Source: Roseithermus sacchariphilus
Lineage (GTDB): Bacteria; Bacteroidota; Rhodothermia; Rhodothermales; MEBIC09517
Direction: 5' to 3'
NCBI GenBank assembly: GCA_003285105.1
Contig: CP030158.1
Span: 310,001-374,000, forward strand
Length of the DNA stretch: 64,000 bases
The notes under the pieces were generated by a model. That model ran no database searches and had not been told where the DNA came from. It saw only the letters and a list, made by a program, of their open reading frames with translations. The translations under genes and the position numbers were made by a program. Below, piece after piece: positions 3,749 to 34,261 of the stretch (its first letter is position 1; each line of letters starts with the position of its first letter).

Positions 3749-3874
3749 TCGCCCGGCGCCGGGCGGATCGGGCCGGCACCGGAGCGACGTTTTCGCAGAA
3801 ACCCCACGCCGCCCCCTCCGCCGGCGCGTATCTTCGTGCGTGTCCCGTTGTTGCCTACCACCCTCCCCCCGTCC

Positions 3875-4531
3875 ATGCGATCCGAGCACGAGCCGTTGCC
3901 GTCCGGGAAGAAGTACGTGGCCGTCGCCGGCAACATCGGCGCCGGCAAAAGCTCCCTGACGAAGGTGCTGAGCGACTATTTCAAGTGGGAACCCTTCTAC
4001 GAGCGGGTGGACGACAATCCGTACCTGGCCGATTTCTACAATGACATGCGGCGGTGGTCGTTCAACCTGCAGGTCTTCTTCCTCTCCAGCCGGTTCAACC
4101 ACCAGCGCCAGATCGAGGCCGCGCCCCACTCGGTCGTGCAGGACCGTTCGATCTACGAGGATGCCGAGATCTTCGCCCGCAACCTGCACGAGATGGGGCT
4201 GATGAGCCCGCGGGACTTCGAGAACTACCGGGAGTTGTTCTCGATCATGACCTCGTACCTGAAGCCCCCGGATCTGCTGATCTACCTGCGGGCGTCCGTG
4301 CCGACGCTCGTGCGCCACATTCAGTCGCGCGGCCGCGCCTATGAATCGACCATCCGCATCGAGTACCTGGAGCGGCTCAACCGGCACTACGAGGACTGGG
4401 TGGAGCGCTACGACCTGGGGCCGAAGATGATCGTGGACGTGGATTCGCTCGACTTCGTCAACGAGGTCGAAGACCGCCGCGAGATCATCGGGCGGGTGGA
4501 GAGCCGGCTCTACGGCCTCTTCCCGGAGTGA
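3875..4531 (+). CDS. Deoxynucleoside kinase (dNK family)
   Basis: A 218-residue P-loop kinase that phosphorylates deoxynucleosides in the salvage pathway. Visible motifs are the P-loop GNIGAGKSS (19-27), ERVDDNPYL (43-51) which includes the substrate-contacting Glu, QDRSIYED (89-96) with the DRS motif, and the arginine-rich lid QSRGRAYESTI. Base specificity (dA/dG or dT/dC) cannot be told from the sequence alone. ATG 3875 is chosen over an upstream GTG at 3836 because the extra 13 residues (proline-rich) do not fit the family and the P-loop normally lies close to the N-terminus. Its stop overlaps the GTG start of the next gene by 4 bases, suggesting translational coupling. Confidence 0.9.
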   Translation: MRSEHEPLPSGKKYVAVAGNIGAGKSSLTKVLSDYFKWEPFYERVDDNPYLADFYNDMRRWSFNLQVFFLSSRFNHQRQIEAAPHSVVQDRSIYEDAEIFARNLHEMGLMSPRDFENYRELFSIMTSYLKPPDLLIYLRASVPTLVRHIQSRGRAYESTIRIEYLERLNRHYEDWVERYDLGPKMIVDVDSLDFVNEVEDRREIIGRVESRLYGLFPE

Positions 4532-18553: not shown

Positions 18554-20014
18554 TCAATAGGCGCCTGACCCCTGGATCACGACCCGTACGGTTCGGACCA
18601 GCACGACGATGTCGAGCCAGATCGACCAGTTGCGGAGGTAATAGGCATCCCAGCGCTCCAGCCCCTCCATGCCGGCATCGCTCCGGCCGAGGACCTGCCA
18701 GAGCCCCGTCATGCCGGGGCGCATGCGGGTGCGCAGTTGTTGCAACCGGGGGGGCAACTCGCCCTGATGATACGTGGGCAACGGCCGGGGTCCGACCAGC
18801 GACATCTCGCCCTTCAACACGTTGACGAGCTGGGGAAGCTCATCCAGCGAGGTCTTACGCAAGAAGCGCCCGACGCGCGTGATGCGCGGGTCGTTCTTCA
18901 GCTTGAAGTTGGCTTCCCATTCCGCCCTGAGCGCGGGGTCCTCCTCCAGCTTTTGCTTCAGCACGGTTTCGGCATCGGGCACCATCGTGCGAAACTTCAT
19001 GACCTTGAACAGCTCGCCGTCCCGCCCGACGCGTTCCTGCAGGAACAGGGGATGATGCCGGTCCTCCAGCCAGATGACGGCCCACAGCATGGCGCACAGC
19101 GGCACCCACAACGGAGCGGCCAGCAGCACCAGCGCCAGATCCATGCTTCGTTTGACGAACTGGGCCAGCGGATCCAGCAGGCTGGACGTGATCTCCAGGC
19201 CCAGGATGCCCACGATGTCCCGGGACTGCACCCACAGCGTCGGGATTTCGAGCAGTCCCGGCACGATCACGACGCGCTTGTAATGCGATAGCGGCCCCTC
19301 GATCAGGTGTTGCACGCGCTCGTGCGGGGCATCCGGGATGGCCAGGATGGCGATGGGCGCCTCCGGGGTACTCTGCTCCGTATCGCCGAGGACCCGCACG
19401 CCTTCGACCAGATCCCCCCACCGATCCGGGTCGTCATCGAACACGGCGATGGGCGTATAGCCGATTCCATCTTCCTCCTGCAGGGCCCGGATGACCATGG
19501 CACCGAGGTGTCCCCCTCCATAGACCACCGTCGGCACGCCCCACTGGTCGTAGTGGATCAGGATGCGCTTGACGACCGTTCGGACGAAGGGGACCAGGAC
19601 GAGACTGCCCAGATACGCCAGGGCCAGCGTGAAACGGCTGGTTTCCCCCATCGACTGCGCGAAGAACAGCATCACGGCCGTGCCGCCGAAGACCACACTC
19701 AGCACGATGACGATGCGGCGCAGTTCTTCCACGGCGCCCATCCCCCAGCTCGGCAACAGCCGGCCGACGACGGCGCCCACCCACCAGGCCAGCAACAGCG
19801 CCCAGCCCCAGGCGGGGATCATCGTAGAGCCGAAGACGGCAAGGCGGAGCAACCCGGCCAGCACCAGCGCCAGCGAAAGGGCCGCCCCATCCCCCAGCGC
19901 CATGGCCAGGGCATTGATCCCACGTCTCCGATGGTAGAGAAAGGCACGCCGCCGTCCACTGGCTTTGCTGTGATGGACGACGTTCAGAGCACGCGGCGTT
20001 GTCGTGACTTGCAT
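18554..20014 (-). CDS. WbaP-type undecaprenyl-phosphate sugar phosphotransferase
   Basis: Starts glycan assembly by moving a hexose 1-phosphate (usually galactose or glucose) to undecaprenyl phosphate at the inner membrane. The 486-residue protein has four N-terminal membrane helices (about 30-150), a Rossmann-like middle domain (YGGGHLGAMVIRALQEED), a fifth hydrophobic helix and the catalytic C-terminal domain: [55 protein letters not shown] and RPGMTGLWQVLGRSD. It is the last gene of the long minus-strand polysaccharide run. ATG 20014 chosen over earlier codons since the first helix follows. Which sugar is used cannot be told from the sequence. Confidence 0.9.
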   Translation of the reverse strand: MQVTTTPRALNVVHHSKASGRRRAFLYHRRRGINALAMALGDGAALSLALVLAGLLRLAVFGSTMIPAWGWALLLAWWVGAVVGRLLPSWGMGAVEELRRIVIVLSVVFGGTAVMLFFAQSMGETSRFTLALAYLGSLVLVPFVRTVVKRILIHYDQWGVPTVVYGGGHLGAMVIRALQEEDGIGYTPIAVFDDDPDRWGDLVEGVRVLGDTEQSTPEAPIAILAIPDAPHERVQHLIEGPLSHYKRVVIVPGLLEIPTLWVQSRDIVGILGLEITSSLLDPLAQFVKRSMDLALVLLAAPLWVPLCAMLWAVIWLEDRHHPLFLQERVGRDGELFKVMKFRTMVPDAETVLKQKLEEDPALRAEWEANFKLKNDPRITRVGRFLRKTSLDELPQLVNVLKGEMSLVGPRPLPTYHQGELPPRLQQLRTRMRPGMTGLWQVLGRSDAGMEGLERWDAYYLRNWSIWLDIVVLVRTVRVVIQGSGAY

Positions 20015-20477
20015 GGGATGTTCGTAAGTCCCGGGAGTCGATGAATGTGGAACAGTAAATGGCCCATTCAGCGCGAAACCGACCGGCCTCCTGTACTTTC
20101 CCCCTCGGCAGCGCTGCCACGACACGGCATCACCACCTCGCGCCCCGCACCGAGTTAGCAAAAATATCGCCTACTCAGGCTGCCGGAACGAAAGAACTCG
20201 TCGTGCCCCGCGATCCAGATCTTGATGCCACGAGATGGATACGATAGAGCTCATGCGCATCATTTCAGCTTCTGCATCGCACCAGAACCCTTCCGTAAAG
20301 CACACAAGCACCTAAAAAAGTTAAAATTACTGCGCCACAGCCAATTACAATTAACACTTTATAATAATCCGCCTCGCATTCACATCCTATTTAAGGCTTT
20401 GTGAATACGCCCACCAAACTCAATTCAGGCAACTGTTTCCGTGACTGACCCGGAAAAAGTGTCCAGACAGGAAAGAG
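20015..20477. other. AT-rich intergenic stretch
   Basis: 463 bp upstream of the WbaP-type gene and after the WecB/TagA gene. Bases 20240-20420 are strongly AT-rich against a 68% GC background. No gene or RNA was seen; it probably holds a promoter for the WbaP-type gene and may mark the edge of acquired DNA. Confidence 0.55.
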
Positions 20478-21305
20478 TTACCGCCTCATGCTTTTCTCTG
20501 CCCCGGAGCGGTAACGGCTATGCAACCACTGCTTGAAGAACAGGAGCAGAAAGCGCGGGTTATGCTTTGCATAGCGTCGCCAGAGCCTGCGGGGCTCCAT
20601 CATCAAGCGGAAAAACCACTCCAGTCCCATGCGCTGCATCCAGGCAGGAGCCTGACGCACGCGCCCCGAATGAAAATCGAAAGCGGCCCCAACACCCAGC
20701 ATGACGGCAGGGATGCGATCCAGATGGTCGGCAATCCAATGTTCCTGCTTCGGGCATCCGATCCCGACAAAAAGAATGCGCGCCCCAGACGCCACGAGTT
20801 GCTCGGTATAAGCCGCGTCTTCTTCTGGCGTCAGGGGCCTAAATGGTGGAGCAATACAACCGACAATCTGGATGCCCGGGAAGCGATCCTGCAAAACCTC
20901 CACGAAATCCGCCAGGCTTGCTTCCGTCCCACCATAGAGGGCGATAGGGATACCCTGTTCGGCGGCAGCAGCACATACGTGTAGCGTCAGGTCTGGGCCA
21001 TAGACGCGTTCCGCCCCCGAGACTCCCAGCGCCCTCAATGCCCAGACCAAAGGAACGCCATCTGGTGTTACCAGATCTGCATTGTTGATAATGGCTCGAA
21101 AGCGCGGATCGTCGTAGGCCTCCATGGTAACGTGGACGTTAGCTGCCACGACCATCCGACCCTGATTCTCACGGCTCCACTGCACTATCTGATCGGTTGC
21201 ACGCGCATAGGACGTAGCATCGACGCGCATGCCAAGAATGAACCGGGAAGGTTGACTGGGTTGCACATCGGACAACGTCACTGGGCCAGAAAGGGATAGA
21301 GCCAT
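20478..21305 (-). CDS. WecB/TagA/CpsF family glycosyltransferase
   Basis: A 275-residue GT26 enzyme, the family that adds ManNAc or a related sugar to a lipid-linked intermediate. Conserved features: VDATSYARATDQIVQW, ANVHVTMEAYDDPRFRAIIN, ADLVTPDGVPLVWALR (with the catalytic Thr-Pro-Asp-Gly), VYGPDLT, and GARILFVGIGCPKQEHW. C-terminal positively charged tail (RRLWRRYAKH) probably contacts the membrane. Start at 21305 chosen because upstream in-frame residues have no family match and overlap the previous glycosyltransferase. GC content is lower here than in the rest of the locus. Confidence 0.88.
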   Translation of the reverse strand: MALSLSGPVTLSDVQPSQPSRFILGMRVDATSYARATDQIVQWSRENQGRMVVAANVHVTMEAYDDPRFRAIINNADLVTPDGVPLVWALRALGVSGAERVYGPDLTLHVCAAAAEQGIPIALYGGTEASLADFVEVLQDRFPGIQIVGCIAPPFRPLTPEEDAAYTEQLVASGARILFVGIGCPKQEHWIADHLDRIPAVMLGVGAAFDFHSGRVRQAPAWMQRMGLEWFFRLMMEPRRLWRRYAKHNPRFLLLFFKQWLHSRYRSGAEKSMRR

Positions 21306-21396
21306 AGATATCGACACGCGATCGTTGCAAAAGACAGACAGCCCTGAAGATTTCACACCGCTCAGAACATAATGCGATCGAAAGCCCAAAGAAAAA

Positions 21397-22578
21397 TCAT
21401 GCCTTTCTTTGCACACGATGCTCTTCAACGACACGCTCATAGATCGACATGAGCTGCCTGTAATTAACCTCGGCCGTGTATTTCTGCTCAAACTCACGCC
21501 GGGCTGCCTGACGCATACGTACCAGTTCGTCCGAATGGACCAGTAGCCAGCGGACCCGGCCGGCCAGGTCATCCGGATCACCGGGGTGAAAATGAAGGCC
21601 CGTGTAGCCATGCTCGACGATTTTCCCCTGGGAGCCCAGCGTCGTCGCCACGACAGGCAGGCCACAGCCAAACGCCTCGGCGAGCACCATGGGAAACCCT
21701 TCATACCATTCGGATGGAAAGACTAGAAATGCCGCATCACTCATAAGTTGCCTGACCTCTTCTGACGTTTTTCGCCCGAGGTATACCACGTTTTTGATCT
21801 GCTTTGCGGCTTCAACCACCAGAGGAGAAAGAGGACCATCACCCACGATCTTCAGTGTGAATGCCCCATCCAGTAGGCGCCATGCTTCCAACAACGTCCG
21901 GATTCCTTTTTCAGGGCTGAGACGCCCTACATAGAGGGCATACCGACCCGGCTGTTCACGCCATCCAGGATCGGTATGCACGAAATTCGGCTTTACGACG
22001 ATCCGATCCGGCGGCAAGCCTCCCTCGATAAACTTTTCGCGGGCGAACTCAGTGAGGGCAATATAACGATGGATTAACCTGGACCAGGTTCCTGCCACTC
22101 GGTGCGTCATAAGCATGGCCGCAACAACCCCGGAAGCCGCTCGACTCTCGCGATAGCAGGCGTGTATTACGCCCCGCCAAGGTACTTTTCCGAGACAATC
22201 TTCACACACACCTCCATTTCTAAACAATAGAGCATTAGGACACAGGAGACGGTAGTTATGCAGCGTCTGCACAACGGGCACACCTACTTCTTTGCAGGAG
22301 TAATAAGCAGCTGGCGATATCAAGGGGAAGGTATTATGAAAATGGACAATATCAGGCTTGAACTCGCTCAGCACCCCGCTCAGCACCCGTCTTTCTGATG
22401 CATTCCATACCGTTTTTACGGCCGTCTCTGCCAAATTATGATTACGGATGGCATCATTGTGAACCGCGTGCTGAACCACCGTGTGTCCATACCGATCGAG
22501 CATGGCCTGCTCAGCAGCAAACACCTGATCTTCGCCGCCGAGCCGCTGGTAATAATTATGGACGAGCAGGATGCGCAT
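21397..22578 (-). CDS. Family 4 glycosyltransferase
   Basis: A 393-residue GT4 protein with GT-B fold. N-terminal MRILLVHNYYQRLGGEDQVF, then HFHNTFPLISPAAYY and a Cys-rich patch CPNALLFRNGGVCEDCL, a common feature in this subgroup. C-terminal half has YALYVGRLSPEKGIRTLLEA and the nucleotide-sugar E-x7-E motif in FPSEWYEGFPMVLAEAFGCG. It works in the cytosol adding a sugar to the lipid-linked repeat unit; donor and acceptor unknown. GC content is lower than the window average. It sits between the ligase and the WecB/TagA gene. Confidence 0.88.
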   Translation of the reverse strand: MRILLVHNYYQRLGGEDQVFAAEQAMLDRYGHTVVQHAVHNDAIRNHNLAETAVKTVWNASERRVLSGVLSEFKPDIVHFHNTFPLISPAAYYSCKEVGVPVVQTLHNYRLLCPNALLFRNGGVCEDCLGKVPWRGVIHACYRESRAASGVVAAMLMTHRVAGTWSRLIHRYIALTEFAREKFIEGGLPPDRIVVKPNFVHTDPGWREQPGRYALYVGRLSPEKGIRTLLEAWRLLDGAFTLKIVGDGPLSPLVVEAAKQIKNVVYLGRKTSEEVRQLMSDAAFLVFPSEWYEGFPMVLAEAFGCGLPVVATTLGSQGKIVEHGYTGLHFHPGDPDDLAGRVRWLLVHSDELVRMRQAARREFEQKYTAEVNYRQLMSIYERVVEEHRVQRKA

Positions 22579-22587
22579 GCTGATGAC

Positions 22588-23940
22588 CTAGGATACAATT
22601 TCCCGCACAGGAACGGTGTCCCCGCCCGCACGCAACGATGAAGGAGGAGAGGTCAAAACTCCTCTTCGTTTCCGGGCATGAAGCTCAATCCCCCCCCATC
22701 CCAGCAGCAGCAGCAGCAGCGGCATGGGAAAGAGAGTACCGACTACGTTCGCTTCGGTCAAGCCACGAATCAAAAAGTAGATCAGGAGCATCATGCCTAG
22801 CATGGCTTCTTTCACCCCCATCGCACGTAAGTGCCGCATGAGCTTCCAGAATCCAACATAGAGCAGCAAACATAAAACGGTTCCTATTACACCGTAAGAG
22901 AAGAGGTTGTGGAGCCACTCGTTATGGGCATGTGGCACAATGCGTGTGAACACTTGGGGGCCATGATTCCGGAACGAAAAGAAGCCATAGCCAAACCATG
23001 GATTATCCCTAATCATCTCCCACGTATCGATCCATAACAAGGTGCGCCCCGACAACGTCAGCATGGTTGCACCGCCCCTATCCTGTATATAGGCAGTCAC
23101 ATAGTCGGACACCAAACCATAACTCAGGTAAACGCCTCCCATAAATAGCAGGGCGAGTACAAGCTTGACGGGCACACTACTCCGTCGCCGTATCACATAA
23201 TAGAATATCGCTACGCCCGCTCCGAGGATGGACGTTTTACTAAGACTCTGGAGGAGTGTCGCCATGAGAACCAGAAAGGCCAGCCCCCACTTAAGTTTTC
23301 CCTTATCCCCCTTCACATCAAAGGTCAGAAAGAGACAACAGAGTGCCGCGTAGGCAAACTGATTCCCAATACTATTCGGGTTCAGCAACTCATCATCGCC
23401 CAGCCGGGCATCTCCCGTGGTTCCGGCCGCGACCAGCGTCACCACAGCCATCACGACCGACCCTGCCACGAACCCCCTGATGGACGCGATCGCCACGCGC
23501 CTGGCATCGCCTTTCCGCAAGAACATGAAGATACAGAAGCATTCGAGCGCCAGCAGCGCCCAGTACGCGAAGGCGACGAACGTCGACTCCGCCCGCGTCC
23601 AGAGCAAGGTAACGAACATCCACGCCATGTACAGTACGAACCATCTGACAGCGCGGGCTTCCTTGAGATATGCCGACCGCGTAGGTAGGTGCATACCGGC
23701 AAGGAACGTCACATAGGCAAACCCGGCCCCGATCACGCCAAAAGCTAACGTACCGTAGGCAGGATTCTCCTGGAAAAAGAGATAGGTGATAAAGGGTTTC
23801 GACGCGTAGAAAAACCAGAACCAATAGGCGAGCGTGTGGACGTGCAGCGTCAGTCCCCAGCTTTTCGGCCGGACGGACCGCGCCGCGACGATGGGGGGCG
23901 CCGGCGCCGACTCGGATGCTATGGACGCAGCATTACTCAT
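22588..23940 (-). CDS. O-antigen ligase / polymerase family membrane protein
   Basis: A 450-residue protein with about 10-12 predicted membrane helices and a large extracytoplasmic loop containing GRTLLWIDTWEMIRDNPWFG and FFSFRNHGPQVFTR followed by VPHAHNEWLHNLFSYG, which is the O-antigen ligase/Wzy signature (the His-Asn-Glu-Trp-Leu motif). It either joins the glycan to the lipid A core (WaaL) or polymerises units (Wzy); the two are not separable here. A run of six CAG codons on the + strand (22700-22723) encodes Leu repeats close to the C-terminus and is slippage-prone. Its start overlaps the neighbour glycosyltransferase's stop by 8 bases. Confidence 0.85.
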   Translation of the reverse strand: MSNAASIASESAPAPPIVAARSVRPKSWGLTLHVHTLAYWFWFFYASKPFITYLFFQENPAYGTLAFGVIGAGFAYVTFLAGMHLPTRSAYLKEARAVRWFVLYMAWMFVTLLWTRAESTFVAFAYWALLALECFCIFMFLRKGDARRVAIASIRGFVAGSVVMAVVTLVAAGTTGDARLGDDELLNPNSIGNQFAYAALCCLFLTFDVKGDKGKLKWGLAFLVLMATLLQSLSKTSILGAGVAIFYYVIRRRSSVPVKLVLALLFMGGVYLSYGLVSDYVTAYIQDRGGATMLTLSGRTLLWIDTWEMIRDNPWFGYGFFSFRNHGPQVFTRIVPHAHNEWLHNLFSYGVIGTVLCLLLYVGFWKLMRHLRAMGVKEAMLGMMLLIYFLIRGLTEANVVGTLFPMPLLLLLLGWGGIELHARKRRGVLTSPPSSLRAGGDTVPVREIVS

Positions 23941-25213
23941 GCGCGGCGTTCACCTCGGCCTCCACGGGAGCCCTGTTCGGAGAGGCGATACCCAGGATGG
24001 CCTCTACGGTTTCATAGAGCGATCGCACGACGTGATCCCATCCAGAGATCTGCGCCTTGGCCCACGCCCCGTCCGACAGCGATTGCCGCACAGCCTTGTC
24101 GCACAAGCGCCCGAGCGCATCGGCCAGGTCGGATACGACCTGAGCTTCTGTCTTCCCGGCAACCGCGATCTTGCAGCCGCACGTCGCATCCACCAACGCG
24201 GCTGGCCCGCCAAGGTCGAGGCAGACGACCGGCAGGCCGTTTGCGAAAGCCTCCAGTACGACGTTCCCGCTCGAATCGTGCAAGCTCGGAAACAAAAACA
24301 CATCGTGCGCTCGGTACAGGCCATGCAGGCTGCGGTGATCCACCCACCCGATCCACTCGATGGCGTCGTCGAGGCCAAGACGGTGGGCGAGCGCCCGCCA
24401 GTGTGACTCATCTGGCCCCTTGCCAATCATCGTCAGCGTAGCCGTGGGATGATGCTCCCGCAGGCGCGCGAATGCCTGCAGACCAAGGTGCATCCCCTTC
24501 CAGTAGAGAAAGCGACCAACGTACAACACCCGCAGCGCCGACGCACCGTGCCTCGGACGCCTGGCCGGCTTCTCATCCGCAACGTCGATCCCAATCTCGA
24601 GGTGCTGATGGGTCTTATGTCGTACCGAGCGCGGCAAGGCGGCTTTCGTCTGGTGCGTCTTGGCGAAGATAAGATCGGCCTTCCGGTACGCGTAACGCAG
24701 CACCGGATCGAGCAGCGACACCCGGTTCAGTCCGTCCCGGATCGCGTCCAGGACCCATCCGCGGAACGGGTACCCCTTCCGAAGCGCTCGCGGCGCCGTC
24801 TCGCCGCCGCCCACCGGACCGAAGACGAAGGGCGCCTCCAACAGACCGAGAAAGCTCGGCTGCCGAAACACCCCAAAAGTGATGTGATGGACGAGGTCGA
24901 AGCGATGTCGGTCATGCAGTCTGCGCGCCAGAGATAGAATACCGACCTGCCACAGCACGTAATACGTCCGGATCCCCCGCCCGCCGCGTTTCCACCGACG
25001 CAGGGCGGCTGGCAGGTCGTAGTAGTGGAAGTGCACGGGCGGGAGGGCAGCATCCCGCGCGTACTCGGCTTCGATAGCCTCGGCGTTGTTCGCCCGCGTG
25101 ATGACGTGGACCTCATGGCCTTGGCGAGCGAGCACCGTGGCCCAGTGCCACCCTACGGACGGCTCCGACCCCTTGCCGGGCTCGCAGGCATAAGCGGACA
25201 GCAAGATCCTCAT
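23933..25213 (-). CDS. Family 4 glycosyltransferase
   Basis: A 426-residue GT4 enzyme: MRILLSAYACEPGKGSEPSVGW is a typical N-terminus; VFGPVGGGETAP and the C-terminal LRVLYVGRFLYWKGMHLGLQ and FLFPSLHDSSGNVVLEAF (E-x7-E type nucleotide-sugar site) follow. Related to glycosyltransferases of O-antigen loci. Overlaps the next genes on both sides (ligase by 8 bases, next glycosyltransferase by 4), so it is part of one transcript. Donor sugar unknown. Confidence 0.88.
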   Translation of the reverse strand: MRILLSAYACEPGKGSEPSVGWHWATVLARQGHEVHVITRANNAEAIEAEYARDAALPPVHFHYYDLPAALRRWKRGGRGIRTYYVLWQVGILSLARRLHDRHRFDLVHHITFGVFRQPSFLGLLEAPFVFGPVGGGETAPRALRKGYPFRGWVLDAIRDGLNRVSLLDPVLRYAYRKADLIFAKTHQTKAALPRSVRHKTHQHLEIGIDVADEKPARRPRHGASALRVLYVGRFLYWKGMHLGLQAFARLREHHPTATLTMIGKGPDESHWRALAHRLGLDDAIEWIGWVDHRSLHGLYRAHDVFLFPSLHDSSGNVVLEAFANGLPVVCLDLGGPAALVDATCGCKIAVAGKTEAQVVSDLADALGRLCDKAVRQSLSDGAWAKAQISGWDHVVRSLYETVEAILGIASPNRAPVEAEVNAAHE

Positions 25214-26717: not shown

Positions 26718-27776
26718 CTACACCTTGGCCATGCGCTGCCGCCAGGCTTCAACGATCTGCCGGATCGTCTCCTCCAGGCTCACCGTGATGTCCCACCCCG
26801 GGTAGTGCGCCCGCACCTTCCGCAAATCACTGTAGTAGCAGATGTGATCCCCGATCCGGGGCTCCTCCGCATACCGGTACACCTGCTTCTGCCCCGAGTA
26901 CCGCTCCGCGAGCGCGAACGCCTCCAGGATCGAGCACGAATTCGCCTTGCCCCCGCCCAGGTTGTACACCTCCCCCGCCCGCGGCGCCTCGATGAAGGCA
27001 TGGATGAACCGCGCCACGTCCAGGCTGTGGATGTTGTCCCGCACCTGCTTGCCCTTGTACCCGAAGATCGTGTACTCGCGGCCCTCCAGGTTGCACTTGA
27101 CCAGGTAGCTCAGGAACCCGTGCAGCTCCACCCCGCTGTGGTTTGGGCCCGTCAGGCAGCCCCCCCGCAGGCAGCACGTCGGCAGGTTGAAGTAGCGCCC
27201 GTACTCCTGCACCATGACGTCGGCCGCCAGCTTCGAGGCTCCGAAGAGCGAGTGCTTCGACTGGTCGATCGGGAAGGTCTCCGGGATGCCGTGAGCGTAG
27301 GCCGGGTCGGCGTAGTCCCAGCGCGTCTCCCGCTCGACCAGGTCGATCGTGTTGGGCCGGTCGCCGTAGACCTTGTTGGTCGACAGATGCACGAAGGGCG
27401 CCTCGGGGCAGGCCTGGCGGGCGGCCTCGAGGAGGTTGACCGTGCCGACGGCGTTGGTGTCGAAGTCGTCGAAGGGAATGGCCGCGGCGCGGTCGTGGCT
27501 GGGCTGGGCGGCGGTGTGGACGATGGCGTCGGGCCGCAGGTCGCGCAGCAGGGCAAGCACACCGGCACGGTCGCGGATGTCGAGTTCGTGGTGCTGAAAC
27601 GACGCGAGCGTCTTCTGCAGGCGCTGCTGATTCCAGCGGGTGTCGCCCTGGGGGCCGAAGAAGACGGCGCGCTGGTTGTTGTCGAGGCCGTGGACGGCCC
27701 AGCCCTGGCGGGCGAAGTAGGTACAAACCTCGGAGCCGATCAGCCCCGAGGATCCGGTTACGAGTATCTTCCGCAT
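26718..27776 (-). CDS. NAD-dependent epimerase, CDP-paratose 2-epimerase-like
   Basis: A 352-residue extended SDR with [10 protein letters not shown] (8-17). The stretches [30 protein letters not shown], and [20 protein letters not shown] are those seen in CDP-paratose/CDP-tyvelose 2-epimerases and their close relatives. Usual catalytic YxxxK tyrosine appears replaced: the Ser-Lys pair in LFGASKLA sits at that position. True substrate is uncertain because no other CDP-dideoxyhexose genes are seen nearby, so it may act on another nucleotide sugar. ATG 27776 chosen; the neighbour gene ends 117 bp upstream. Confidence 0.75.
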
Positions 27777-27892
27777 GATCCTGGTCTGGTTATACGTACG
27801 ATGGTTGCTGTCGTGTCGTGCTATAGCTTGATATCGTGCCGCAGGGGGCACCGTACATCGACGGGTCTCGTACCGATGAGGGCCCACACAGT

Positions 27893-28999
27893 TCACGAGT
27901 GCAAGAGGGTATCGATCTGCTGCCCCAACCACAGCCAGACGCTGCTGTCCCCGTCTTCCGGGGCCTCAATCCGGGCCCGGCTGTAATACAGGCTCATGTC
28001 CACCAGATACGCAAGCTTCAACCCGGCGGCCCAGGGCTGCACGTCCGCCCAACAGGCTAGATCCGTGCCATCGAACTCGGCCCAGTGGGCATCGGCTTTC
28101 AAGCCCAGCGCGACCTGGATGGCCTCGAAATGAAAGGCGTCGTACAGCGGGGGGTAACCGCCTCTAGCCGCTTCCCAGTCGAAGACGAAGAGCTTCTCGC
28201 CGTCGAACCGGGTGTTCCAGGGGGCAAAGTCGCGGTGTGCGTAGCACAGCGGCAGCCGAACGCCCGCGAAGTATTGCTCCAGCCAGCGCAGGGCGTGCTG
28301 GTACCGGGTGCGCCAGGATGCGGGAAGACGCTCGTGCAGGTCGGCCCAGTCCGTCTGGGCGCACTGCCAGAGGACACTCTGGGTAAAGAGGCGCGGGGGC
28401 GTCCGAGTGGCCTCATAGAGCCGGTTCAGAAAGGCGATTTGCGCCGGACCGAAGTCCGACGGCCCCGTCGGCTGTGGACCGGGGGACAGCAGAATGCCGA
28501 AGGTGTCCCGGCAGGTGAATGCACCATACAGCGTCGGCAGTGTCCCCTTCAGCGCCGGGGCCGCTGCCAGGACCTCCAGGTTACGCTGCTCGTCGCGCAG
28601 CGCGGCTTGCGCACGGGGTGCCTCGGCCGCTTTCGCATAGGCCAGCACCGAACCGTCGGGCGCCATGACCTGGAGCGTATGTTTGCGATAGGCACCGGGC
28701 GTGCCCAGCGAAAACGCGAGCCGGAGGTCCTCTTCCCCGAGCACGGCGGCGATGCAGTCCTCCAGCAGCGCCAACTCACGCCTGTCCAGATCTACCCGCG
28801 CCCCGCGCCAGAGCCCCTGCCGGCCGGCCCATTTCAACAGGCGCCCAATCAGCCGCTGAGGCACGTACATGCCCAGCCCTGCCTGCCGGACAGCCCGGTC
28901 GACCGGCAACAACAGTCGAGGCTGCCGTCCTCCTGGAAAGGCGACGTACGGCCGTCCTTGTCCCTGCGGCACTGTATGTATCAAGGCAGACACGTTCAT
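27893..28999 (-). CDS. APH-like kinase (aminoglycoside phosphotransferase fold)
   Basis: A 368-residue protein with the APH/choline-kinase-like fold. Residues seen: ATP lysine candidate Lys123 (YAKA), Glu137, catalytic loop [14 protein letters not shown] with His255, Asp257 and Asn262, and metal site [10 protein letters not shown] with Asp274 and Glu276. All the expected kinase residues are present. Resistance is unlikely; the setting in a polysaccharide locus, 4 bases overlapping the NTase/P-loop kinase gene, suggests that it phosphorylates a sugar or other glycan precursor. Substrate unknown. Start at 28999 gives the overlap. Confidence 0.72.
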
Positions 29000-30294
29000 A
29001 CGTTTCTGAGATGCCGGGCGTGCGCGTGTAAGGCATGAAGAATCGCCTCCTCGGCTTGCTGCACAACCTCGTCCAGCGGCTGGCTGGCATCCAGGATCCA
29101 AGCACCGGGAAGGTCGGCGACGAGTTCTCGGTACGCGATGCGCTGCCGCTCCGTCTCCGCAAACGGCACCTCCTGCTTGCGGGCTTGCAGCACCTCAGCC
29201 GGGGCATCCAGCAAGATCCAGAAGTCCGGCTGCGGGATGAGCCGACGCACCCAGCGGGCCAACCCTACCGGCGCGCCGTAGCGGTACCGTACCGGATCGA
29301 TCAGGAGATCCACGTAATGCCGGTCGAACAGGACGAGGGTGTTTTTCGCCCGCCGGTGTGCCAGGCGCAGCCAGTAGCCCAGTTGCCAATCCAGCACGAG
29401 GAATCCCAGCTTGAGGACAGACGCCGCCGTGCTGCGTGGCGGTTGGCTGTGCGGCTCCGTCGTGGGCGCCTGCCCCTCCGAGGAGCCGCCGAGCCATCGG
29501 GGCCGCCAATGTTCTAGATGGAGGCGCAAGCCCTGGGCCGCCAGCCGTTCCTGCAGCTGCTCCAACACACTCGACTTGCCACTGCCGTCAGGGCCCAGCA
29601 CGCAGCCCCAGGGCAGCGGGGGCCTCCAACGCAGGCGCATCTCCGCACGCCAGAACGCCAGCGCCCGGCGGAGGGTACCGCGCGGATCCCGCTTGAGGGC
29701 CTGGCGACGCAAGGCTGTGCGGAGCGGCGCTACCCACGCCTCTGAGGCAGCCAGATCACCCGTCTCTGCCAGCTCCACCAGCCGTGGCCCCCACACCGGT
29801 CCCACCGCATACCGGCAGGCAGCCTGAAAAGCCTCGGCGTCGTCCCGGGCGGCGGTGCGAATCCCCTCGGCGTAGCGTTGTTTGAAGAAGCCGCCCCAGA
29901 TGAGGCTGTAGAACCACGACATGAGCGCCTCGTGGGCCGGCCGGGGCCGCCGGAAGCCCCACGCCGAAGGTTCCGCTTCGCGCAGCACCTGTGCTGTCTC
30001 CAGAAACCGGGCGCCGCGCCATTCGATCGTGTCTGTCAGATCCAGATGCCCCCATGGGTAGAAGTAGCTGTGGACGTACGACCGATGCGTGGCCCAGCGT
30101 GGGGGTCCGAGTGTCGCAACGAGCAAGCGGGCAGCTTCCTGCACGTCTGGCACCAGCAGGTCGATGTCGCCTCCGCGTTCGAGGTTGGCCCACACGTCAT
30201 GATTGCGCAGCACCACCGCCCGCTCGCCGAGGGCGTTCAGGAACTGTGTGATCTGCTCGCGTGGGATGGGATCGGCCAGCATGGGATTCATCAT
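28996..30294 (-). CDS. Nucleotidyltransferase-like / P-loop (thymidylate kinase-like) fusion
   Basis: A 432-residue two-part protein. Residues 1-200 look like a nucleotidyltransferase-fold domain: VVLRNHDVWANLERGGDIDL gives the GG-D-x-D pattern at 41-45. Residues 228-432 are a P-loop kinase resembling thymidylate kinase: GCVLGPDGSGKSS (230-242), FDRHYVDLLIDP (323-334; DR(Y/H) motif), a C-terminal lid and helix. Such fusions occur in polysaccharide loci but have no proven function known to me. The stop overlaps the APH-like gene start by 4 bases; the two likely form a functional pair. Start at ATG 30294 (MMNPML) chosen since earlier residues overlap the upstream glycosyltransferase. Confidence 0.72.
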   Translation of the reverse strand: MMNPMLADPIPREQITQFLNALGERAVVLRNHDVWANLERGGDIDLLVPDVQEAARLLVATLGPPRWATHRSYVHSYFYPWGHLDLTDTIEWRGARFLETAQVLREAEPSAWGFRRPRPAHEALMSWFYSLIWGGFFKQRYAEGIRTAARDDAEAFQAACRYAVGPVWGPRLVELAETGDLAASEAWVAPLRTALRRQALKRDPRGTLRRALAFWRAEMRLRWRPPLPWGCVLGPDGSGKSSVLEQLQERLAAQGLRLHLEHWRPRWLGGSSEGQAPTTEPHSQPPRSTAASVLKLGFLVLDWQLGYWLRLAHRRAKNTLVLFDRHYVDLLIDPVRYRYGAPVGLARWVRRLIPQPDFWILLDAPAEVLQARKQEVPFAETERQRIAYRELVADLPGAWILDASQPLDEVVQQAEEAILHALHAHARHLRNV

Positions 30295-30304
30295 GAACAC
30301 GGGA

Positions 30305-31432
30305 TTACAGGTACCGTCGATAGAGAGCGGCCATTTGCCCAGCGATCGCACGCCAATGAAACCGGCATTCTATCACCTGCCGGGCTCGGCAACCGGCCTC
30401 GTCCAGCACGGCCGACGGAGCGTCGAGTACCTGCCGGAGTCCGTCAGCAATAGCCTCCGGGGTTGCCGCCGTGATCCAGCCGGCCCGTGCTTCCGTCACA
30501 TCCACTGCCAGGTTGGTCCCCGGCGTGAGAAATACGGGGCGTCCCAACGCCATCGCTTCCAACACGGAAAACGGCATACCTTCCCACCGGGAGGTGTGAA
30601 AGAACAGACGGGCTCGTTTCAACAGGTCGAGCTTGGCCGGACCGAACACCGGCCCCGGAAACGTCACCCGGTTTCGCACACCGAAGGCTTCGCACATCTC
30701 CTCCAACTGGCGACGGCCTCCCCGAAAGTCGGGGCCGGCGAGGATGAGGGGGGGCACCTCGTGCGGGCTGTCCCGGCAGACCCGGGCGTACCCCTGAATG
30801 AGCAGGTCGAGGCCTTTGTGGTCGACCGCGAGCCGCCCGAGAAATACCCAAGCGGATCCGGCGCGAGGTGGCGGCACAGGCTCGTCGAGCAAATCCTGGT
30901 CGATTCCGTTCGGAATGAACGGCGTTGGGGCTGTCACGCCCATCTGCCGTAGAAATTCGACCTCCGGCTGGCTCACGGCATGCACCACTCGGGCACGGTT
31001 CGCGAAGGGACGCTCCACCAACGGGGTCCACAGCGCCTTCACGAGGCGGTTGCGCCCCTGCAGAACCGAGGGGTTGTACCCGCCATTGGGCGTCAGTACG
31101 TATGGCCGTCCCACCCGGCTCACCTGAATATTTTCAGGCGTAAAGACCGAATGCAGGTGGATCCAGTCGACCTGCCCGGCCCGCCAGTCCAGGAACGCCC
31201 GCGTCGCATCCGGCAGCGAGACGGCCGCTTGCCAGCGCGAGGCCGGGCAGGGTAGGTTGAACACCGTCGTTCCCTTTACCGCGGCCTCCTCCACCCGCGT
31301 CACCTTTCGTGAGAGGTGCCACACCTCCACCTGCACCTCCTGCTCCGGTAGATGGCGCACCAATCCGGCGATCGTTTTATCGACTCCGTTTGCGCTGTCC
31401 GGCTTGTAATTCCCAACGTGAGCGACACGCAT
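30305..31432 (-). CDS. Family 4 glycosyltransferase
   Basis: A 375-residue GT4 enzyme: MRVAHVGNYKPDSANGVDKT start with glycine-rich acceptor loop, VDWIHLHSVFTPENIQV, and C-terminal WVFLGRLAVDHKGLDLLI and SRWEGMPFSVLEAMALG (E-x7-E). Starts at 31432. Close gaps of 20 and 10 bp to its neighbours. Donor unknown. Confidence 0.87.
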   Translation of the reverse strand: MRVAHVGNYKPDSANGVDKTIAGLVRHLPEQEVQVEVWHLSRKVTRVEEAAVKGTTVFNLPCPASRWQAAVSLPDATRAFLDWRAGQVDWIHLHSVFTPENIQVSRVGRPYVLTPNGGYNPSVLQGRNRLVKALWTPLVERPFANRARVVHAVSQPEVEFLRQMGVTAPTPFIPNGIDQDLLDEPVPPPRAGSAWVFLGRLAVDHKGLDLLIQGYARVCRDSPHEVPPLILAGPDFRGGRRQLEEMCEAFGVRNRVTFPGPVFGPAKLDLLKRARLFFHTSRWEGMPFSVLEAMALGRPVFLTPGTNLAVDVTEARAGWITAATPEAIADGLRQVLDAPSAVLDEAGCRARQVIECRFHWRAIAGQMAALYRRYL

Positions 31433-31452
31433 CGGTATACGATCCTCCTCAT

Positions 31453-32739
31453 CTAGGCTAACTGAGCCGGTTCCATTTCTACAGGTTCTACAGGCTCTAC
31501 TGACTCCGGCCGCCGGGCTAACAACCAAGCCATGACAGCTCCCGTCGCCGCAGACGACCCGATGAGCCCGGCGATCGCTCCAGCGACCCCGTAGACGTAG
31601 GTCGCGCCCAGACCGCCCGTCAATGCTACCAGGGTTGCCGCAACGTATGCCCAGAAAACCCGATCCGGCTGCTCGCGGGCCCGCAGTGCCCCCCCCAGGA
31701 CAGCCACGATGCTGGCCGTCACCGGCAGGGCACCGAAGATCCAGAGCAGCGGGGCCATGTCCAGATACTGCCCTCCGTAGATCCAGTCGAGGAGCGTCTC
31801 CCCCCACAGGCCGGCCACCAGCCAGTAGATAACGGAACCGCCCACGAATAGCAGTACCATCCGCCGGATCATCGTTCCGAATGTGCCCGCCTGCCGGACT
31901 CGCACCAGCGTCGGGAGCAGCAATACCGACAGGGCCGAGATCACCTGCAGGGGCGGCATTATGATGTTGTTCAGCGCTTTGAGTTCACCGCTGGCATCTA
32001 GGCCGGCCCAGATCGGCAGCACGAGGAAGTACATATTACCAGGAACCCACATGAGCAACCCCGTCGCTGCTGACCAGCGTCCATACGCCCAATGCTTTGC
32101 CAAAACGTCAGTTTCAAGATTCTCGTGGACGGCGTCATCCTCTTGCCGGTACAGGGACCGTCTGATCCAGAGTCCCGCACCGGTTCCGGCCACCGCAAGC
32201 ATGCCGAAAGCCGCTTCCGCCGAAACCCAATCCCCTGTGAAGAGCACCCCTCCAACGACGCCCAGAAGCACCAGATACCAGATGCCGCCGACCACGGCCC
32301 ACTGCGGCCGCAGCTTCACGTAGCAAGCGCGCCGCATGAGCCACAGGTACAGCATAAAAGGCTGGACGGCAGCCATGCTCGCCATGACCGGAGCTAGCAT
32401 GACCGCCCCATTTATCCACAGATAGGCCGCGACGAGGGCCAGCACACCAGCGCCCGCTACAGAGAAGACGATATGGCCGCACGTGAGCAAGCGCAGATAG
32501 GTCTTCAAGGAGGCCTTGTATCGACCGGCCCCGTAGACGAGCATGGGCTCCGTCAGGAGTGCCGTATGGAAGATACCCAGCAGCGTAAAGATGGAGAAGG
32601 CTACGGTAAAGGCCCCGTACGATTCGGGGCTGAGCCAGCGCGCCAGCATGACGTTGAGCAAAAAGTTCACCCCCGCAAAGAGGGCCTGATCGAGAATCGA
32701 CCAGATCCCTTTTTTCAACCAGTCTCCGAAATGCCTCAT
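31453..32739 (-). CDS. Polysaccharide flippase (Wzx-like), first copy
   Basis: A 428-residue MATE/MOP-superfamily protein with about 12 predicted membrane helices. N-terminal LKKGIWSILDQALFAGVNFL and MLARWLSPESYGAFTVAFS are the usual start of this family. It likely moves the lipid-linked repeat unit across the inner membrane. C-terminal tail is acidic and repeated (VEPVEPVEMEP). ATG 32739 is chosen over one at 32838 that would overlap the Wzi gene and add a leucine-rich region of weak likeness. A second flippase is at 56694-57968. Confidence 0.86.
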   Translation of the reverse strand: MRHFGDWLKKGIWSILDQALFAGVNFLLNVMLARWLSPESYGAFTVAFSIFTLLGIFHTALLTEPMLVYGAGRYKASLKTYLRLLTCGHIVFSVAGAGVLALVAAYLWINGAVMLAPVMASMAAVQPFMLYLWLMRRACYVKLRPQWAVVGGIWYLVLLGVVGGVLFTGDWVSAEAAFGMLAVAGTGAGLWIRRSLYRQEDDAVHENLETDVLAKHWAYGRWSAATGLLMWVPGNMYFLVLPIWAGLDASGELKALNNIIMPPLQVISALSVLLLPTLVRVRQAGTFGTMIRRMVLLFVGGSVIYWLVAGLWGETLLDWIYGGQYLDMAPLLWIFGALPVTASIVAVLGGALRAREQPDRVFWAYVAATLVALTGGLGATYVYGVAGAIAGLIGSSAATGAVMAWLLARRPESVEPVEPVEMEPAQLA

Positions 32740-32824
32740 CGACGAATAATCGTTGCGTTGCGGTGGCAGCGCTTGCGAAAGCAGACGTGTAGTTTCGTCC
32801 AACAATCGAAGAAGAAGTAGCGGT

Positions 32825-34261
32825 TCAGAATCGATCAACCCGGTAGCGGAGCGTCAGGAGCGCTCCCAGGCGATCCTCGTACACCTGCCCCTTATCCCAC
32901 CCCACCGCCAGCCCGATCGACCACGCCGGCCGGCGGGGCAAGGTCACCGTTCCCTGCACCTGCAAAGAAACCTGCTCGAGCGGTGGGTTGAAGCGGTACA
33001 CGCCCCCAGCGCTCTCGATCGCGTCTTTTTCATAGTACGTACCGTAATTCCGGGTGTAGCTCACCATAACCCGGTATTCGACAGATCTCCACGGGTGTCC
33101 GCCTATCCCGAGATGATGCCCTACGAGCCGCGTGTTAGCGATGAACAGCCGGTTGGGTGAATCCTCCAGGTCCTCGTGCGGAAAGAGAAATGGGGACCCC
33201 AGCGTGCGCCGGTAATAGGTCCACCCGTGCCGATAGATCCCATGGTTGTAGTAATCGTCCCGCCCGGCCGGGCCGTCTCGTTCGCGCGTGGGGGCCTTGG
33301 GGCCGCTCTGCCATTTGGTGTACAGGTACTCGTACACGACCTGATCGATGAACCCGCGGTCGGCGCGGGTCACCGCGATGCCCTGCAGCCCGTCCTGCCA
33401 CGTCTTCAGCTTCACGCCGTCCTTGTCGTTGAACGGCATGTGCCGGTAGACGAGCAGAGTGGCCCGGGAATGCCGGTAGGTCAGCCCCATGTCGTAGATG
33501 CCCAGGTGGTTACCCTGGATGTAGTCCTGGTCGATGGCGGGGGCATCCGCGCTCCCCCGGAGCGCGAAGAACACCCGCACGAAGTCATCGAGCCCATCCG
33601 GGATGTCGCCGTGCCGCTCCGACTGGCCGGCCCATACGGCATCGTGTACCAGACCGGCGTAGACGTTCAACGGCAGCCGCCCACCGGCCCGGAGGTAAAG
33701 GCTTTTCTCGTGGAGCCAGGCATTCTGCACCTCCCGGCCGTCTTCGAACCACCCATGCGTCAGGTGCCCGCGAAATTCGAGGTAGCCGCGGGTTCCTGGC
33801 ACCGGCTGGTACGCCGGCAGGGACACCACCACCTTGGGCATCGGCGTCGCGTTGAGGCTCGTCCCCATGGATCCGCTCGACAGCACGCCGGCCGTTAGCC
33901 CGATGGACTCCACCTCCCGCCCGATCCGCAGTTGGAAGGCCTGCCACTGCGCCCGGACGTAGAGTTGGTTGAAGTAAGCCGTCGACGACGCCGACCAGCG
34001 CGCGACGACGTCCGCGCCGACGTCCACGCGGGTGCTCCTGCTCGACCACAGCGACGCTGTTGCCAAGGCGCGGACGTACCCGAGGCGGGGGGCATCGTCG
34101 ATCATCCCCATGCGGTTGCTGTAGAGCCAGAAGGGGAAGGCGGCGTCCGATGAGCCCCCTCCGCCTACCTCGACCATCACGGATTGCGGGGACCGCTGCT
34201 GGGCCGGTGCCGGACCCGCCAGGCAGCCAAACAGTGCGATTATCACCAGAATCCTAGTCAT
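32825..34261 (-). CDS. Capsule assembly Wzi family outer-membrane protein
   Basis: A 478-residue protein with a signal peptide (MTRILVIIALFGCLAG ending APAQ). The mature part is a beta-barrel in the style of Wzi, the E. coli outer-membrane lectin-like protein that anchors capsule. Alternating strand regions run from NQLYVRAQWQAFQLRIGREV through YYRRTLGSPFLFPH to a C-terminal LLTLRYRVDRF with terminal Phe. The usual Wzi barrel length is matched. It is directly upstream (11-bp gap) of the SLC13 permease gene on the same strand. Its presence supports capsule rather than only LPS output. Confidence 0.82.
   Translation of the reverse strand: MTRILVIIALFGCLAGPAPAQQRSPQSVMVEVGGGGSSDAAFPFWLYSNRMGMIDDAPRLGYVRALATASLWSSRSTRVDVGADVVARWSASSTAYFNQLYVRAQWQAFQLRIGREVESIGLTAGVLSSGSMGTSLNATPMPKVVVSLPAYQPVPGTRGYLEFRGHLTHGWFEDGREVQNAWLHEKSLYLRAGGRLPLNVYAGLVHDAVWAGQSERHGDIPDGLDDFVRVFFALRGSADAPAIDQDYIQGNHLGIYDMGLTYRHSRATLLVYRHMPFNDKDGVKLKTWQDGLQGIAVTRADRGFIDQVVYEYLYTKWQSGPKAPTRERDGPAGRDDYYNHGIYRHGWTYYRRTLGSPFLFPHEDLEDSPNRLFIANTRLVGHHLGIGGHPWRSVEYRVMVSYTRNYGTYYEKDAIESAGGVYRFNPPLEQVSLQVQGTVTLPRRPAWSIGLAVGWDKGQVYEDRLGALLTLRYRVDRF

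Follow-up and report, generated by a model that had tools for sequence, protein, structure and literature searches.

By analogy, the nearest mechanistic precedent for the tailoring route considered below appears to be pseudomycoidin, in which Ser is phosphorylated by a kinase, after which a nucleotidyltransferase (NTase) attaches one or two hexoses to the new phosphate (review PMC8498205). The module proposed here, which combines an NTase-fold domain, a thymidylate kinase (TMK)-like domain, an APH-fold kinase and a GT4 glycosyltransferase, would likewise use kinase and NTase in sequence on one acceptor and place a sugar on phosphate. In pseudomycoidin, however, the kinase is an HPr kinase homologue, the acceptor is a peptide, and TMK-like, APH and GT4 components do not figure; the NTases are likened by description. 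NTase folds can make phosphate-linked polymers, as is known from LicD proteins, in which the NTase acts as a polyol-phosphate polymerase (PMC11666461). The Lic1 (LicA-LicD) system resembles the module in pairing a choline-kinase-like fold with an NTase-fold protein that decorates a surface glycan, but the module gives no PF04991 match, shows no constant LicC-like cytidylyltransferase in the annotated loci examined, and has a TMK-like kinase in addition. WbdD, the O-antigen kinase/methyltransferase, is a kinase-fold enzyme that phosphorylates glycan in the cytoplasm. By description, it belongs to ABC-transporter-dependent chain termination, whereas the module lies in Wzx/Wzy loci and has NTase and TMK-like units that are separate. 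Thymidylate kinase itself (PF02223 / TIGR00041) shares fold, P-loop, DR motif and LID region with the TMK-like domain; the latter differs in being fused to an NTase domain, in lying in exopolysaccharide (EPS) loci, in its altered pocket and in scoring far below TIGR00041. Inside the Wzx/Wzy cluster wps-1 of Actinoplanes missouriensis, the kinase-like WpsI, likened here to the module by description, is as essential as Wzx/Wzy for the phenotype; sulfotransferases are present in that cluster and no NTase or TMK-like partner is described (PMC13390465). An Akkermansia capsule paper places an aminoglycoside phosphotransferase next to cps1, a gene whose kinship to the module is not established. Searches of the open-access literature yielded no account of the pair or the module among reports on thymidylate kinase or APH in EPS or O-antigen loci, and no papers on PF14907 / NTP_transf_5.

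Locus layout and domain composition

The window is a stretch of 64,000 nucleotides from Roseithermus sacchariphilus (contig CP030158.1, positions 310,001 to 374,000). A sequence-only reading had described in it a gene fusing an NTase-like to a TMK-like domain, overlapping by 4 bases a complete APH-type kinase gene, with all catalytic residues apparently intact and both genes between glycosyltransferases. The fusion gene is present and intact (Table 1), a 4 bp ATGA overlap joins it to the full-length APH gene, and the NTase triad, the P-loop and the APH catalytic loop are all kept; an alternative, longer start of the fusion gene is possible at a GTG at 30351. The placement between glycosyltransferases holds on the upstream side, where a GT4 lies, but the immediate downstream neighbour is an epimerase/dehydratase, with glycosyltransferases only beyond it. 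Wzx and Wzy (Pfam) and priming and glycosyl transferases occur together in one cluster, and on this gene content the locus is classed as a Wzx/Wzy exopolysaccharide cluster on the (-) strand.

Table 1. Positions in the window of the pair, its domains and the surrounding cluster genes
Feature	Position	Strand	Details and basis
WbaP-like gene	18554-20161		name from sequence reading only
WecG-like gene	20478-21704		named as for the WbaP-like gene
Wzy-type polymerase/ligase	22588-23940	(-)	PF04932 E 4.2e-20
Module GT4, window copy ('YACEPxxGSEPxVGW' subfamily)	23933-25213	(-)	adjacency/fusion to pair in most loci
NAD-dependent epimerase/dehydratase	26718-27932	(-)	directly downstream of pair; PF01370 E 1.1e-45
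APH-fold kinase gene	27893-28999	(-)	368 aa
NTase-TMK gene	28996-30294	(-)	432 aa; ATG start = 30294
TMK-like P-loop kinase domain, residues ~224-432	28996-29625	(-)	GPDGSGKS P-loop, D324-R325, LID RKQE 372-375
Helical linker domain (predicted), residues ~101-223	29626-29994	(-)	AF2: mostly helical, pLDDT mostly 80-92
NTase-fold domain (putative), residues ~1-100	29995-30294	(-)	triad D43, D45, D85; weak PF14907; AF2 secondary structure
GT4 of different subfamily	30305-31807	(-)	directly upstream of pair; NCBIfam matches (HpsP, other GT4s) below cut-off
Wzx-type flippase	31453-32838	(-)	PF01943 score slightly below cut-off; synteny

The N-terminal half of the NTase-TMK protein gave no match in a Pfam scan, and no confident solved-structure match was found for the NTase domain; a search with this domain returned one weak PDB match named nucleotidyltransferase-like (E 0.6), and the list from a fold search with the whole model was filled by TMK chains. 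Among 24 very divergent N-terminal domains, D43, D45 and D85 are the sole invariant columns, in the DxD...D carboxylate pattern of the NTase fold, and 4 of the 24 weakly match PF14907 NTP_transf_5 (E 0.0024 to 0.1). Because of these invariant residues and weak matches we assign the half to the NTase fold, a putative assignment that draws on motif, topology and PF14907.

The second gene is, judging from its family, an APH-fold kinase. The window protein (P0002) scanned alone has no Pfam match, so the assignment depends on its relatives, 8 of 10 of which match PF01636 (best 1.1e-11); its AF2 model was unusable (pLDDT 45). The catalytic pattern HRD257xxxxN262, D274, E276, K123, E137 is conserved in the family, E137, H255, D257, N262, D274 and E276 being present wherever a member's frame extends over their positions. 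H255, D257, N262 and D274 occur in all members except one with a split frame, E137 in all but one gap, and the K123 position holds Lys in 30 members and Arg in 3. The split frame (L003:6034-7252, in a cyanobacterial-lineage MAG) lies near an X stretch and is probably an assembly problem.

Choline kinases are among the solved relatives of the APH profile (4r77, E 0.0023), and PF01633 Choline_kinase matches 2 of the 10 relatives scanned. Together with the NTase fold of LicD proteins (PMC11666461), these matches favour a phosphocholine-like decoration, in which the APH would be a choline/ethanolamine-type kinase, the NTase a LicD-type phospho-X transferase working from CDP-X, and the TMK-like domain a recycler of CMP or an accessory. 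Such a decoration seems improbable, as none of the 24 NTase domains matched PF04991 LicD at E<=0.1 and no cytidylyltransferase was seen to recur beside the module throughout those annotated loci that were examined.

The acceptor pocket of the TMK-like domain

A family profile search against the PDB retrieved thymidylate kinases at E 1.4e-10, and the AF2 model of the NTase-TMK protein (pLDDT 77.7) compares well with S. aureus TMK (VIA Z 17.8, 3.2 Å over 181 residues). The P-loop and the RKxE lid are kept in all 35 homologues, and the DR motif is also kept. Scores against the thymidylate kinase families are low: the window protein falls below the Pfam cut-off for PF02223, and the equivalog cut-off of TIGR00041 (83 bits) is missed both by the window protein (23.8 bits) and by the best relative scanned (36.1 bits). 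In an alignment with the genome's own tmk, the base-contacting Arg of TMK (AxR) is replaced by an aromatic residue (Y/F/W/H) in 33 of 35 members, a pocket Ser by Asp (D329) in 34, and a pocket Tyr by Asp (D333) in 33. We take the role of these Arg, Ser and Tyr positions in the dTMP pocket to be as established for dTMP kinases. Since the dTMP-pocket residues are lost although the fold is kept, the TMK-like domain is probably not a dTMP kinase; it is probably active on another acceptor, which we infer is likely to present phosphate or sugar groups.

Identity with the housekeeping dTMP kinase was ruled out by these altered residues and by the presence of a housekeeping tmk elsewhere in the same genome (G000:C1:1392136). 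A second PF02223 match, at 273867, is deoxynucleoside-kinase-like, lies beside a folK-like ORF and is unrelated. Two related deoxynucleoside-kinase-like ORFs, of which one adjoins the folK-like ORF, are found in this one genome, at window positions 3836-4531 and at L036:8811-9521 (G000:C1:273811-274521). A lone TMK-like domain that has no NTase domain (L028:9466-10284) is flanked by oxidoreductase and NhaA-like genes and is possibly a relic.

Co-occurrence, fusions and a fourth part

The sequence-only reading had proposed a search for conserved co-occurrence across polysaccharide loci, and would have given up its idea had the pair not been conserved elsewhere. The pair proved to be conserved in the window's order, in the order around Novimethylophilus, on plasmids and in Verrucomicrobiota, with adjacency and several types of fusion. 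A single-sequence search of 60 genomes found NTase-TMK relatives in 10 and APH relatives in 8, all within those 10. With profiles, 114 genomes of the window's order gave NTase-TMK in 10 and APH in 9, and all 9 APH genomes carry NTase-TMK; the tenth NTase-TMK genome has the TMK domain only, outside an EPS context. In one genome of the set (G005), APH begins right after NTase-TMK at the same contig end. The sampled Novimethylophilus order (399 genomes) has NTase-TMK in 4 genomes, the same 4 that carry APH, plus a fifth, weak APH match (E 6e-7). Searching 72,556 plasmids with P0002 alone returned 5 records, every one of which carries NTase-TMK. In Verrucomicrobiota, NTase-TMK occurs in 12 of 289 genomes, and an APH, in some cases weakly scoring, lies close by in each of these 12 loci. 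Hypergeometric p values for co-occurrence are 1.5e-12, 4.8e-9 and 3e-21 for the window's order, the Novimethylophilus order and plasmids, uncorrected for shared phylogeny. Counting G005 as having APH, the partner is absent from only 2 of 35 loci (L028 and L068). For some divergent loci (L033, L066, L067, L097 and L102-L104), the APH partners have E values of just 1e-6 to 1e-13, to be read with the commonness of APH folds in mind. NTase, TMK-like and APH parts accompany one another in no fewer than four bacterial phyla. These are the phylum of the window (Hymenobacter included), Verrucomicrobiota, Pseudomonadota (alpha, beta and gamma) and, in one MAG, a cyanobacterial lineage; Actinomycetota also carry the module, less securely.

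The arrangement of the parts varies by lineage. Hymenobacter pHsw1 encodes APH-NTase-TMK as a single 823-aa protein, a locus of the Novimethylophilus order (L075) has NTase-TMK-APH-GT4 in one 1176-aa ORF whose NTase is cut by the contig end, and a verrucomicrobial locus has a TMK-APH fusion (L100). In another betaproteobacterial locus of the Novimethylophilus order (L074), a Wzx flippase is fused to APH. Two loci (L099 and L105) have NTase, TMK, APH and GT4 as individual genes in each other's neighbourhood. These lineage-specific fusions and splits indicate that the four parts are separable and have been recombined, yet stay together. One might suspect that common folds simply happen to be neighbours in an EPS locus that moves horizontally, given that the APH, P-loop and NTase folds are all abundant and that plasmids carry some of the loci; this is contradicted by near-exclusive co-occurrence across independent samples and by the several fusion types, and we consider it hardly credible.

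The fourth part is a GT4 of one subfamily, with the motif YACEPxxGSEPxVGW, which is adjacent or close to the pair in most loci. Each of the 7 pair-positive genomes tested has it, at E<1e-90; weaker matches in 5 of 22 pair-negative genomes mean that it is enriched with the pair, not exclusive to it. Mirror-tree correlations, from which shared species history was not removed, are 0.59 for NTase-TMK/APH, 0.72 for NTase-TMK/GT4 and 0.75 for APH/GT4 (all p 1e-4), so that GT4 divergence tracks that of APH and NTase-TMK more closely than those two track each other. The unit had been seen as two genes. The pair is real, but because one GT4 subfamily accompanies it we count four parts, and one fusion reaches as far as the Wzx flippase.

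The dedicated GT4, accompanying or fused to the kinases and closest to them in divergence, is also what would be expected of the main rival to the tailoring reading, a sugar-activation cassette. Here the APH would be an anomeric sugar kinase, the NTase would convert the sugar-1-phosphate to an NDP-sugar for use by the GT4, and the TMK-like domain would carry out a second phosphorylation or recycle nucleotide. Fusions of kinase and nucleotidyltransferase for sugar activation are established in HldE and in fucokinase/GDP-fucose pyrophosphorylase (FKP). However, we know of no sugar-1-phosphate nucleotidyltransferase of the pol-beta/PF14907 NTase type, and a Wzx-APH fusion would be odd for an enzyme of free sugars; on balance, we regard sugar activation as unlikely.

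Fusions to GT4 and Wzx could also be read as regulatory, with the kinases and NTase modifying proteins (Wzx, GT4 or Wzc) and controlling export instead of acting on the glycan. Protein modification is within reach of both NTase-fold enzymes and kinases, but three co-conserved catalytic units, with no sensory domain in the family scans, seem to exceed a simple regulatory need, and we hold this role to be very improbable.

A role in anti-phage defence was rejected: PADLOC gave no match for NTase-TMK (P0001) or APH (P0002), and P0003 had one weak match (E 0.0032), to the P-loop only. Phage records searched with P0001 gave no match. One IMG/VR contig filed as viral (L068:3736-6064) carries NTase-TMK without APH, beside a Methyltransf_24-type gene resembling one in EPS loci.

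A proposed tailoring route on lipid-linked repeat units

Co-occurrence, adjacency and fusions strongly support the two genes as a functional pair in glycan synthesis, and this much of the sequence-only proposal stands; its specific chemistry, the building or activation of an unusual sugar or phospho-substituent, stays conjectural. There is good support for the pairing as such and for its functional connection with glycan assembly. The module probably adds to the sugar chain, or activates on it, a group bearing phosphate, by a so far undescribed route whose chemistry and product are presumed.

Our preferred reading, to which we give a probability of about 0.48, just short of even, is that the pair forms part of a cytoplasmic module of four parts for phosphate-dependent tailoring of the lipid-linked repeat unit, before flipping, in the Wzx/Wzy pathway. 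In this scheme, the undecaprenyl-linked repeat unit would receive a sugar from the GT4, and the APH kinase would phosphorylate a hydroxyl group of this sugar or of the sugar's substituent. Adding or activating a phosphate would fall to the TMK-like kinase, in which conserved Asp and Arg replace the nucleotide pocket, and through that phosphate the NTase would then transfer a nucleotidyl group or a phospho/glycosyl group. The repeat unit would end up with a phosphate or phosphodiester substituent before being flipped by Wzx. Fusions to a glycosyltransferase and a flippase favour this tailoring route, and since both of these handle lipid-linked units, they suggest that the acceptor is the undecaprenyl-linked repeat unit and not some free metabolite. 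The intact residues, the co-occurrence, the fusions, the glycan context and the changed acceptor pocket are observed features; the substrates, the order of the steps and the phosphate in the product we infer. A further-reaching version, in which a four-enzyme assembly (GT4, APH, TMK-like kinase and PF14907-like NTase) in at least four phyla would build a phosphodiester- or nucleotide-linked substituent on undecaprenyl-linked units by means of two serial kinases and an NTase, a chemistry new to exopolysaccharide biosynthesis, we regard as doubtful.

EPS loci abound in genes labelled 'hypothetical protein' or 'phosphotransferase', and here such genes resolve into one module. Should the module phosphorylate lipid-linked repeat units, phosphate groups may have gone unnoticed in many environmental EPS, where they would affect charge, metal binding and the properties of biofilms; the module would then also offer a new means of producing phosphoglycans. 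The fused proteins make its activity directly testable.

Two further associations were seen in the neighbourhood of the module. On two Leisingera plasmids (L062 and L063), it adjoins luxI/luxR-type quorum genes and an rfbCBDA rhamnose operon; the Leisingera EPS may, given the luxI/luxR-type neighbours, be quorum-controlled. Several loci belonging to the window's order, and also Novimethylophilus, encode one or two right-handed beta-helix proteins (PF13229) downstream of the module (L030:7514-11700, L027, L031, L032; L005:10167-11807); these are apparently secreted, and each is a possible lyase or epimerase.
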